Origin: Sedimentisphaerales bacterium
GTDB taxonomy: Bacteria; Planctomycetota; Phycisphaerae; Sedimentisphaerales; SM23-30
Direction: 5' to 3'
DNA: 32,332 bases
NCBI GenBank assembly: GCA_016930295.1
Contig: JAFGHE010000092.1
Span: 1 to 32,332 of the forward strand
The notes beneath the pieces were generated by a model that searched no databases, had not been told where the DNA came from, and saw only the letters and a program-made list of their open reading frames with translations. Both the position numbers and the translations under genes were made by a program. The stretch's first letter is position 1; each line of letters starts with the position of its first letter. This document shows, in pieces, positions 4,535-32,332 of this stretch.

Positions 4535-4587
4535 TCTGAATACTCCAAAACTAAGAGGGATTTCAAAGAGGCTCAAATGACGCCGGC

Positions 4588-4658
4588 GTCAAAAGTATGG
4601 CGAACGGTTGTTTCTGGATTAAAAACAGCGATTTTAATTACCAATATCCACTTTGGAC
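4588..4658 (-). repeat. 71-bp dispersed element, copy A
   Basis: The ends are GTCAAAAGT (4588-4596) and ACTTTGGAC (4650-4658), near-perfect terminal inverted repeats. By eye about 64 of 71 positions match copy B at 32257-32327 in the opposite orientation. The inner part contains TGTTT/AAACA arms able to form a small stem. Strand is given relative to copy B. No coding sequence is carried, so it resembles a very small non-autonomous element or a REP-like repeat. Confidence 0.8.
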
Positions 4659-4757
4659 GGAACCATCTAAAATAAGAGGCTTCCTCATAAAACTCATACA
4701 TTCCATACACCCGACATCCTACCTTAAAATCGCCCCCCTGTCAATCCTGTCAAAAAA

Positions 4758-13355: not shown

Positions 13356-13877
13356 ATGGTTAATCAAGGAAGATTAATAAAAGTCGTTTTCTTACTCATG
13401 GCTGCCATGACGACCGGGGCCTTAATTCTATTAGCTTTCGAGGGAAAACCCATTAAACCCATGGCCTTCAGTTTGTCCAGCCAGACTCCCTTGAAATCCG
13501 TTCATTCCGTCTTAGGTACCCAAGCCGGGATTGAACTGGGACACTGGCAGCAGATTGAAGTCTCCTATGAATCCAATCAGGGTCGCTTATCAGCCGGTAA
13601 CGGACCCACCGGCTCGCTGACTATGGCCTATCATTTCATCATCAGTAATCACGCCACGGGTATGGATGGCCAGATTTTTGCCACCTACCGTTGGGCCAGA
13701 CAACTGGAATGTATCAATCTGAAAAATTCTTCTAATTTCCCCCGAATCATCAGAATTTGCCTGATTGTTGAACCAGATGATGACCTGATTACACCACAAC
13801 AATCCCGACAGATTGAAAAGCTTGTCTCCAGCCTGAAAAAATACTGCCAGATCAGTTCACCCGTCGTCTGGAAATAA
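13356..13877 (+). CDS. membrane-anchored degenerate PGRP/N-acetylmuramoyl-alanine amidase-fold protein
   Basis: The 173-residue protein has one N-terminal membrane segment (about 8-27). A periplasmic domain then follows the order of a PGRP-type amidase. W64-QQIEVSYES aligns with the WxxIVIHHSAT strand, YHFIISNHATGMDGQI (92-106) with the YHFVIGNGTGSGDGQI core, and IIRICLIVEPDD with GIGICLVGDF. The final helix PQQSRQIEKLVSSLKKYCQI matches the family end. However, the zinc-binding His pair is replaced by Ser70-Tyr71, the second His is missing near LECINLK, and the chain ends before the GHRD site. It should therefore bind rather than cut, perhaps sensing peptidoglycan. AGGGAAG precedes the ATG. 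It lies upstream of a kinase-phosphatase pair on the same strand. Confidence 0.65.
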   Translation: MVNQGRLIKVVFLLMAAMTTGALILLAFEGKPIKPMAFSLSSQTPLKSVHSVLGTQAGIELGHWQQIEVSYESNQGRLSAGNGPTGSLTMAYHFIISNHATGMDGQIFATYRWARQLECINLKNSSNFPRIIRICLIVEPDDDLITPQQSRQIEKLVSSLKKYCQISSPVVWK

Positions 13878-13962
13878 TCCTCTCTGTATATACAATTCCA
13901 TATATACCCATAAACCTTTTTTTTATAAACATTTACAATGAAACAATCCTTTTAATGCCCAC

Positions 13963-14033
13963 TCCAAAAGTAGATATTTTCACTTAACACCGTTGATTTA
14001 ACCCGGAATCAATGCTTCTAAATTCTTTCACCC
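13963..14033 (+). repeat. 71-bp dispersed element, copy C (degenerate)
   Basis: Aligned without gaps to copy B from TCCAAAAGT (13963-13971), it shares the blocks AAAAGT-GATATT, CACTTAA/CATTTTAAG, TTTAACCCGGAATCAA and the upstream ATGCCC. Roughly two thirds of positions match by eye. The far inverted repeat is eroded. It has the same orientation as copy B. Confidence 0.5.
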
Positions 14034-14367
14034 AAGCGTTTTTTTTGCGTTTATATCTGCACTTTGACATATTTCTGCTTGAAAAAATAAAAAAAATACA
14101 ATAAAATTTTGAAATACATTATAATATAATACTACTTAACTATATAAATTAGGATAAAAACAAAGCAAAAGCCGGCAGCAAATGACGCCCGCAGGGCTGG
14201 TTGTTCTGGTGAGTGAGTAGACATTCTTTAAGCTATTATATTTTATATACTTATATTTATTTTACCCCCTATTTATCTCACCCGCCTAAACGTAATAACC
14301 GCTAAAGCCGCTTTCCATAATGTCCCGGCAGTAAGAAAACAGGGTAATTGAACGGCTCAATATATAT

Positions 14368-14485: not shown

Positions 14486-15388
14486 GTGCCGGAATTGACT
14501 CGATTAAAAACGCATCGACTGTCATTGTCTGAAGCCGAAACTCCGGTCTTTGAGGGGTACGAAGTTATTCGTCGGTTAGGAGTCGGTGCAGGTAGTGTCA
14601 TCTACTATGTCAAAAAAGAAGGGACCGACCAGGGTTTCGCCCTCAAACATGTCATTCGACAGAATGGCCAGGATAAACGCATGATCGTCCAGGTCGAAAA
14701 CGAATTCCGAATGGCTAAAATGGTTAATCATCCCTATGTACGAAATGTCATCGAGATACGACGCATTAAAAAACGCCTGCAAACCCGCGAAGTATATATG
14801 TTGATGGAATTTTGCCCGGGCATAAGTCTGGAACAAAGCCCCAGTCGGTCCGTGCTGGATCTGCTCCTGATCTTTAGAATGGTGGCCGACGGCATTAATG
14901 GCATGCACAACAGTGGCTTGCTCCATTGTGACATGAAACCAAACAATATTATCATCGCCGAGGACGGCAGTATCCGTATTATCGACCTGGGACAAAGCTG
15001 TTTTATCGGCACGATCAAGCCGCGTATCCAGGGTACCCCGGACTATATCGCCCCGGAACAGGTTAAGCGTAAACCGCTGAGCAAACAAACAGATGTATTC
15101 AATCTGGGTGCCACCCTGTACTGGGCTTTTACCGGCAGACATGTTCCTACGTTAATACCTAAAAAAACGGATCGGGTCGAACTGGCCGAGGCCAGTACTG
15201 TGGGACCACCGCCCACTCCCCACCAATTAAAACCTAAAATACCTCTGGGTGTTTCAAATCTTATCATGGATTGTGTTGCTAAAGAGCCCAAGGACCGGCC
15301 GGCTGATATGCTGGCCCTGATATCACGCCTGGATTTACTGATCCATATGATTGCCGGAGGCAAGCCCACCGCTAATGGGGGATCATGA
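14486..15388 (+). CDS. cytosolic Hanks-type Ser/Thr protein kinase
   Basis: The 300-residue protein is essentially one kinase domain. It shows the glycine loop LGVGAGSV (31-38), Lys54 in FALKH, Glu71 or Glu73 in the C-helix and a catalytic loop HCDMKPNN (147-154; Asp149, Asn154). The DFG site is IDLG (Asp167), the activation segment is GTPDYIAPEQ (183-192), and DVFNLGATLYW is the F-helix. HCD in place of HRD suggests it does not need activation-loop phosphorylation. There is no membrane segment or PASTA repeat, unlike PknB. The start is GTG with AGGAG 11 bases upstream; no ATG occurs before residue 66. The stop overlaps the next start as ATGA, coupling it to a phosphatase. Substrates are unknown; the neighbouring membrane amidase-fold protein is a candidate partner. 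Confidence 0.88.
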   Translation: MPELTRLKTHRLSLSEAETPVFEGYEVIRRLGVGAGSVIYYVKKEGTDQGFALKHVIRQNGQDKRMIVQVENEFRMAKMVNHPYVRNVIEIRRIKKRLQTREVYMLMEFCPGISLEQSPSRSVLDLLLIFRMVADGINGMHNSGLLHCDMKPNNIIIAEDGSIRIIDLGQSCFIGTIKPRIQGTPDYIAPEQVKRKPLSKQTDVFNLGATLYWAFTGRHVPTLIPKKTDRVELAEASTVGPPPTPHQLKPKIPLGVSNLIMDCVAKEPKDRPADMLALISRLDLLIHMIAGGKPTANGGS

Positions 15389-30079: not shown

Positions 30080-31990
30080 TCATACCGGCAATTGTACGGT
30101 TACTGTTGTGCCTTGATCGATCTGGCTTTCGATGCTGACCCGGCCGCCATGTTTTGCCACGATGCCATAACTGACGGCCAGGCCCAGGCCGGTCCCTTTG
30201 CCTTCCTGTTTCGTGGTGTAGAAGGGATCAAATATTCGTTCTATGTTCTCGGCGGGGATCCCGCAGCCGGTATCCGATATTTTAAATTCCGCCCAGGGCA
30301 TACCCTTGTCCTCAAAAGCACGGCTATGCACCGCCAATTCACCGCCGTCCGGCATGGCATCTATCGCGTTCACCATGAGATTCACTGCAACCTCCTGAAT
30401 CTGATTCGGATCCAGGAGTATACCCGGCAGGTCGGGGTCTAGTTCCTTTACCACACGGATACGATTCATTCCCGCCGGATTACGAACCAGGTTCAAGGCC
30501 TGGTCCAGAAGGTGATTAAGATCAGAGACATTTTTCCGGGGTTCATTTTGCCGGGAAAAGTTCAAAAGACCCTGAACAATTTCTTTGCATCGAGTGGTGG
30601 CCGCTATGATTGTTTCAATGTCTTTTCTTTCCTGAGAATGTTCCGGTGCATTTTTCAGCAGCATATGGGCAAATGTCAGCACACCGGTGAGGGGGTTGTT
30701 TATCTCGTGAGCAACTCCTGCAGCCAGACGGCCGATCGAAGCCAGATGTTCCGAACGTGAAAGCTGCAAATGAGTAAGTTCCTTCAGTTTTTCATCACGT
30801 TCCCGGAGCGACCGGGCCATACTGTTAAAGCTTCTGGTCAAAGAACCAATTTCATCCGCTGAACGACCGGTGTCAATGGTATGGGAAAAATCTCCCTGAG
30901 CAATAGCCGATGAAGCCGTGACCAGATTCGTTACCGGATGAGAGATACTGTCCGCCAGTTTCCAGGACACCACGACAGTGACTAACAGCCCTACAAAGGT
31001 CAATACACCAAACAGGGTAAAGGTGTTCAGGGCGGCCTCTCTGAACTTACCTGCCAACACGCCGACGTAGAGCATACCAATGATATTATTATCGATATCT
31101 CTAATCGGTGTATAGGCGGCAATATACCAGTCATTAACCACCCAGGCCCGGTTGACCCATGTTTTTCCCTGCTGTAAAACATAATCATAAACTTCGCGGC
31201 TGACCCGGGAACCCTGGGCACGTGCCCCGTCATCGTTTAAAACGTTTGTGGATATACGTACATCATTCTGGAAAATAGTCGCCGTACCCAGTTGCTTCCC
31301 TTTATACTGTTCACCGTGGAATACCGTATTCTGGACCTGATCCACAATGTCAAAATTCTGATTGAGTAATATGCCTGCTCTTAGTATTCCGGCCAGATGG
31401 CCCTGGGAATCCCACAGGGGGGCCGCGGAGCATAACATCATGCCGGCCTCCAATTGGGTGATATCTGATGGAACCGCCCGGGGAGAAGGTAATATTTTTA
31501 TTCCTGCTCTCTCGGCCAGAGAAGGTGATTCTTTTTCCAAATCGCCAAGAGGAATAAGAATCGTACCCGAGAGAGCTTCTTTGTGGTTCAGCACAAAGTT
31601 AACCAAGGGGTCTTCGTTTAAAGAATCGCCGAAAAGACCGGATTGGTGTGCCCGGTAAATGACGCGCCCGGCATTATCCGTAACACAGAGAATATCGAAA
31701 TTCCCGCTCTGGCGAACCTTATTAAGACGAACAGATATATAATTGATATCTTTTCCCGTAACGGCCTGAGTAAATCGTTCTCCCAGGCAGGTATAGAAGA
31801 GGGCGTTTTCCATGGCCGCCAGGCGCTGCTGATAAAATTCGCCGGCGGCATTTAATTCCTGGCGGACACGATTGCGGGCCTCCCGGCTCAGATGCCAATG
31901 GAGCAGATACCCTCCAATAACGGCCGAGACACCCCCTGAAATAGCAACCACGGCTATTAAACTAATTACAATTCGACCTCTAAGGGTCAT
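30080..31990 (-). CDS. Cache-domain sensor histidine kinase, partner of the NtrC-type regulator
   Basis: The 636-residue protein has a first membrane segment (about 9-30) and a large extracytoplasmic double-Cache region (35-315). Its PLWDSQGHLAGILRAGILLNQNFDIVDQVQ and YIAAYTPIRDIDNNIIGMLYVGV blocks are typical of the single-ligand sensors. A second membrane segment (322-343), HAMP (344-398), HisKA with His428 in GVAHEINNPL and an ATPase domain (NLMVNAIDAM, DTGCGIP, GKGTGLGLAVSYGI) follow. This is the NtrB/AtoS-like class that usually signals to NtrC-type regulators, and the regulator gene follows directly. AGAGGTGA lies before the ATG at 31988-31990. The ligand is unknown; Cache sensors bind small acids, amines or similar metabolites. 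Confidence 0.92.
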   Translation of the reverse strand: MTLRGRIVISLIAVVAISGGVSAVIGGYLLHWHLSREARNRVRQELNAAGEFYQQRLAAMENALFYTCLGERFTQAVTGKDINYISVRLNKVRQSGNFDILCVTDNAGRVIYRAHQSGLFGDSLNEDPLVNFVLNHKEALSGTILIPLGDLEKESPSLAERAGIKILPSPRAVPSDITQLEAGMMLCSAAPLWDSQGHLAGILRAGILLNQNFDIVDQVQNTVFHGEQYKGKQLGTATIFQNDVRISTNVLNDDGARAQGSRVSREVYDYVLQQGKTWVNRAWVVNDWYIAAYTPIRDIDNNIIGMLYVGVLAGKFREAALNTFTLFGVLTFVGLLVTVVVSWKLADSISHPVTNLVTASSAIAQGDFSHTIDTGRSADEIGSLTRSFNSMARSLRERDEKLKELTHLQLSRSEHLASIGRLAAGVAHEINNPLTGVLTFAHMLLKNAPEHSQERKDIETIIAATTRCKEIVQGLLNFSRQNEPRKNVSDLNHLLDQALNLVRNPAGMNRIRVVKELDPDLPGILLDPNQIQEVAVNLMVNAIDAMPDGGELAVHSRAFEDKGMPWAEFKISDTGCGIPAENIERIFDPFYTTKQEGKGTGLGLAVSYGIVAKHGGRVSIESQIDQGTTVTVQLPV

Positions 31991-32223: not shown

Positions 32224-32256
32224 AATCTTTTTTATTAGAACTTTATTGATGCCACC

Positions 32257-32327
32257 GTCAAAAGTGGATATTGGCATTTTAAGTCGCTGTTTTTAATCCA
32301 GAAACAACCGTTCGAAATACTTTTGAC
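32257..32327 (+). repeat. 71-bp dispersed element, copy B
   Basis: The ends are perfect 9-base inverted repeats, GTCAAAAGT (32257-32265) and ACTTTTGAC (32319-32327). It matches copy A (inverted) at about 90% and copy C at about two thirds. It begins roughly 23 bases after the expected start of the sigma-54 transcript, so it would form part of that 5' leader. The rest of 31991-32332 holds no gene. Confidence 0.8.
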
Positions 32328-32332
32328 GCTAG

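Follow-up and report, generated by a model that had tools for sequence, protein, structure and literature searches.

The short repeat that occurs three times in the window, i.e., in the whole stretch of 32,332 bp analyzed here, is an 89-bp MITE, a known kind of element with a new sequence, and is a member of an IS1182-like group. Most probably (we put the probability at about 0.88), it is mobilized in trans by an IS1182-like DDE transposase. The window is an entire contig (G000:C171) of a draft genome of 4.23 Mb (329 contigs, 88.6% complete). The unit of the element, GATGCCACCGTCAAAAGT ... ACTTTTGACGCYRGCGTC, is bounded by 6-bp target-site duplications and is not 71 bases long, as was claimed in the initial annotation: according to the alignment of the flanks of the copies, conservation extends 9 bp beyond the 71-mer on both sides, and just outside the 89-bp unit there is a 6-bp direct repeat, the sequence of which varies between copies. 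Both ends are 18-bp terminal inverted repeats, the left one being GATGCCACCGTCAAAAGT and the right one (inverted) GACGCYRGCGTCAAAAGT, and some of the mismatches between them are constant across the copies. The right end is almost perfectly palindromic in its outer 12 bp, unlike the left end. The length was exactly 89 bp in 47 of 54 full-length copies from the window's genome. A 92-bp subfamily with an internal CCCGGCGAAACACCGGG hairpin was also observed there (C59, 11373-11464; C61, 25526-25601).

All three copies reported in the window were recovered with a profile HMM at scores (29.2-93.2 bits) above the top score of 7.9 bits found among 60 dinucleotide-shuffled windows. Copy A, a full-length element, occupies positions 4579-4667 of the minus strand (84.5 bits, E = 1.3e-25), with a right-type terminal inverted repeat, GACGCCGGCGTCAAAAGT, at 4579-4596 (plus strand), the outer 12 bp of which are nearly palindromic, and a left-type one, GATGGTTCCGTCCAAAGT, at 4650-4667 (minus strand). 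One of its termini is altered (GTCCAAAGT), and its flanks, TCAAAT and TAAAAT, match at four of six positions, with no exact 6-bp duplication. Copy B (32248-32332, plus strand; 93.2 bits, E = 2.6e-28) starts with the left-type repeat GATGCCACCGTCAAAAGT (32248-32265, plus strand) and comprises 85 of the 89 bp, the final 4 bp being absent because the window, a whole contig, stops there. Copies A and B are mutually inverted, as had been noticed, and are 86% alike across 87 nt; the 71-bp core of copy B is identical in three further copies in the genome (on C287, C98 and C5). Copy C (13955-14038, plus strand), previously regarded as old, is indeed a decayed yet significant member of the family (29.2 bits, E = 2.4e-8), in which the ends GTCAAAAGT/ACTTTTGAC, assumed to be shared by all three copies, are not kept: it reads TCCAAAAGT, and ACTTTTGAC is absent. 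Among the neighboring genes, a GH2 beta-galactosidase-like one has copy A 44 bp upstream of its likely ATG (4534, minus strand), and a Cache/HAMP sensor histidine kinase ORF (30080-31990, minus strand) has copy B upstream of it at a distance of approximately 260 bp; copy C is located between an ORF at 13356-13877 and a protein-kinase ORF at 14486-15388.

The forecast that the element would be present in hundreds of copies in the genome agrees with our counts. The terminal repeat gave 443 matches in the window's genome versus three for the reversed control pattern, while the query with the 71-mer returned at least 40 copies at ≥92% identity and 218 first-look candidates. By pairing of ends, 54 full-length copies were delimited in a sample of 678 kb, of which 430 kb was unselected; the unselected part contained 18 full-length copies, which corresponds to about 177 per genome, and profile matches including decayed and contig-end copies amount to up to about 270 per genome. 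The genome total of the element is about 180-270 copies, mostly intergenic: just four of the 54 copies were located inside open frames, though these make up about 85% of the DNA. Several of the genome copies share identical cores. Target-site duplications, suggested earlier as a check, were found as exact 6-bp repeats at 26 of 52 sampled copies, against 0.16 expected from shuffled flank pairings; exact duplication at other lengths was seen in 10 of 53 copies for 5 bp, in one for 7 bp, and in none for 8 bp or more. Flanked in this way, the copies evidently arrived by insertion. Approximately six of 40 sampled contigs (C4, C5, C15, C21, C34 and C44), as well as the window at position 32332, stop inside the element, so the repeat helps to break assemblies of such genomes.

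The repeat is widespread among relatives of the organism. Within the same family, terminal-repeat matches with at most two mismatches numbered 290 in G004, 131 in G007, 105 in G008, 54 in G001 and 12 in G012, the reversed pattern giving 0-2 matches in these genomes, and there were no such matches in G006 (99% complete). Five other genera of the family (G004, G007, G008, G009 and G012) possess elements of 85-92 bp that share the ends and the 6-bp duplications but have strongly diverged cores, and a few 106-115-bp variants occur among them; a window copy and the elements of G004 and G007 are still alignable, at about 73% identity. Two 112-bp variants with an internal insertion of approximately 23 bp were noted in G008 (L155, 4799-4910; L156, 1916-2027), one of them with an exact 6-bp duplication. 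Elements of 92-99 bp with the same ends were revealed in another family of the order (G332). The end-pattern scan of the contig collection detected the element mainly in related planctomycete contigs, along with scattered 18-mer matches in other phyla.

Elsewhere in the order, outside the window's family, the terminal repeat occurs approximately 100 bp from contig ends, a placement typical of a longer element with many copies. An insertion sequence of about 1.9 kb with the same terminal repeat is present in the window's family and in sister families, the DDE transposase behind these ends being legible only in the latter. A complete insertion sequence (G022, contig C10, 17700-19594; ends GATGCTGGCGTCAAAAGT / GATGCCTGCGTCAAAAGT) encodes a 576-aa transposase with a DDE_Tnp_1_6 domain (51.7 bits at a cut-off of 25.1). 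With the IS1182 model (NCBIfam NF033551), E values of 2.8e-38 (the G022 protein) and 2.6e-44 were obtained, so that the enzyme behind these ends is clearly, if distantly, related to the IS1182 family; the scores of 132 and 152 bits do not reach the equivalog cut-off of 270, and therefore we use the name 'IS1182-like' only. A search for solved structures for the transposase returned none. The terminal repeat also stands approximately 140-150 bp upstream of the starts of homologous transposases in G457, G407, G430 and G048, with a weaker match in G288. In G001, which belongs to the window's family, the insertion sequence is known from its ends: at least 26 of its 3' ends were detected, at contig ends where the lengths are known. 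Among 140 pairings of its 5' and 3' flanks, four matched at exactly 6 bp (AAGCTT, TATCTA, TTTTTA and AACCTT), and none matched at 5, 7 or 8 bp or in offset controls. One further clear non-palindromic flank match each was found in G389 (CCTTTT) and G048 (TTAGTT). Unlike IS1272, a member of the IS1182 family that replaces palindromes without duplication (PMC5678879), the elements of this IS1182-like group thus duplicate 6 bp.

The matching ends and the 6-bp duplication of the 1.9-kb insertion sequence identify the 89-bp repeat as a MITE of that group. The MITE core and the interior of the insertion sequence are dissimilar, and the two elements are linked only by their terminal repeat and by the length of the duplication. 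The proposal that the repeat is MITE-like and moved in trans is thereby supported both by its target duplications and by the insertion sequence of the relatives. According to the proposed mechanism, a DDE transposase encoded elsewhere would bind the element at its two 18-bp terminal repeats, excise or copy it, and insert it at cuts staggered by 6 bp, mostly in intergenic DNA, whereby each new copy would become flanked by a 6-bp target duplication. This transposase would come from the IS1182-like group with its insertion sequences of approximately 1.9 kb, the same terminal repeats and the 6-bp duplication. We infer that the 89-bp element owes its movement to an IS1182-like transposase and that the window's organism has, or until recently had, such a helper.

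A transposase with matching ends, the search for which had been advised, was thus found in relatives, with the same duplication length, but not in the window's own draft genome, where the search for the end motifs of the insertion sequence was also negative. This absence is weak evidence, because insertion sequences with many copies are collapsed by short-read assembly, which G001 demonstrates. The only DDE_Tnp_1_6 match in the own genome, a truncated frame of 247 aa (C214, 7054-7344), was rejected as the helper, since matching ends are absent; it is possibly a remnant of another insertion sequence. An insertion sequence of the IS1634 family with a 609-aa transposase (C18, 5238-7248; ends TTCGCACTTGGCGGTCAAAAA) is located within one of the 89-bp copies. 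Its presence in the same genome raises the question of whether the MITE could be moved by a different enzyme, such as this one, the more so as the ends of the C18 element (TTCGCACTTGGCGGTCAAAAAGTGGA) have GTCAAAA(A)GTGGA in common with the 89-bp element. We consider this improbable: the outer 11 bp are different, whereas in the IS1182-like elements the match covers almost the full 18-bp terminal repeat and the target duplication is 6 bp, and G008, G001 and G012 carry the repeat ends yet have no IS1634 homologues. As it sits within one 89-bp copy, the C18 element was read as a later insertion and was rejected as the helper, as was a second IS1634-like element (on C102), which has no matching ends.

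The initial annotation had allowed for an RNA or protein-binding site. A cis-acting repeat of this kind, selected at gene starts, for instance as a leader hairpin, would agree with the position of copies A and B upstream of genes and with a single-strand fold better than that of shuffled sequences (z of about -3.4 to -5.5 in the window species). The fold, however, is explained by the inverted repeats: in an alignment of 43 copies, just one of the 31 pairs of the single-sequence fold displayed two-sided compensatory change, and among the pairs predicted for the consensus fold none kept such a change, so that the conserved pairing between copies looked for did not appear beyond the terminal repeats. 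Moreover, the window had no match in Rfam, the gene context of the copies did not differ from background (27 tandem, 8 divergent and 6 convergent), and the target duplications mark the copies as having come in by insertion; this alternative is therefore very improbable. The GACGCYRGCGTC palindrome at the right end resembles CGTC-tagged REP sequences, palindromic repeats of no known transposase, and CGTC or GTAG REPs have been reported in Planctomycetes as hairpins of 20-40 bp, the stems being 8-9 bp and the loops 4-5 nt long, mostly with a CCA tail (PMC3733652). Like them, the 89-bp element is high-copy, intergenic and palindromic and contains CGTC; in contrast to such short hairpins, it has a unit of 89 bp and 18-bp terminal repeats with 6-bp target duplications, which leaves this assignment virtually no probability.

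As a MITE, the element is comparable to Chunjie of Geobacter uraniireducens, Nezha of cyanobacteria and MITEAba12 of Acinetobacter, a comparison made by description only (review PMC10969869 and background knowledge). All of these are short and gene-less, possess terminal inverted repeats and target duplications, occur in many mostly intergenic copies and are thought to be moved in trans. The 89-bp element differs from them in sequence, host and helper group, and is shorter and unusually uniform in length.

Judging by their location, copies A and B may have altered the leaders of the GH2 glycosidase and sensor kinase genes. A dense repeat of an uncultured planctomycete lineage is hereby accounted for and linked to a transposase group. 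A less likely possibility is that transposition requires the whole 89-bp unit, and not its ends alone, as a substrate with a fixed geometry. If so, the end spacing or helical phase would be selected by the transposase, in line with a length that stays within 85-92 bp across five further genera of the family while the core diverges strongly; such near-constant length combined with a diverging core would offer a simple test for selection on MITE geometry.
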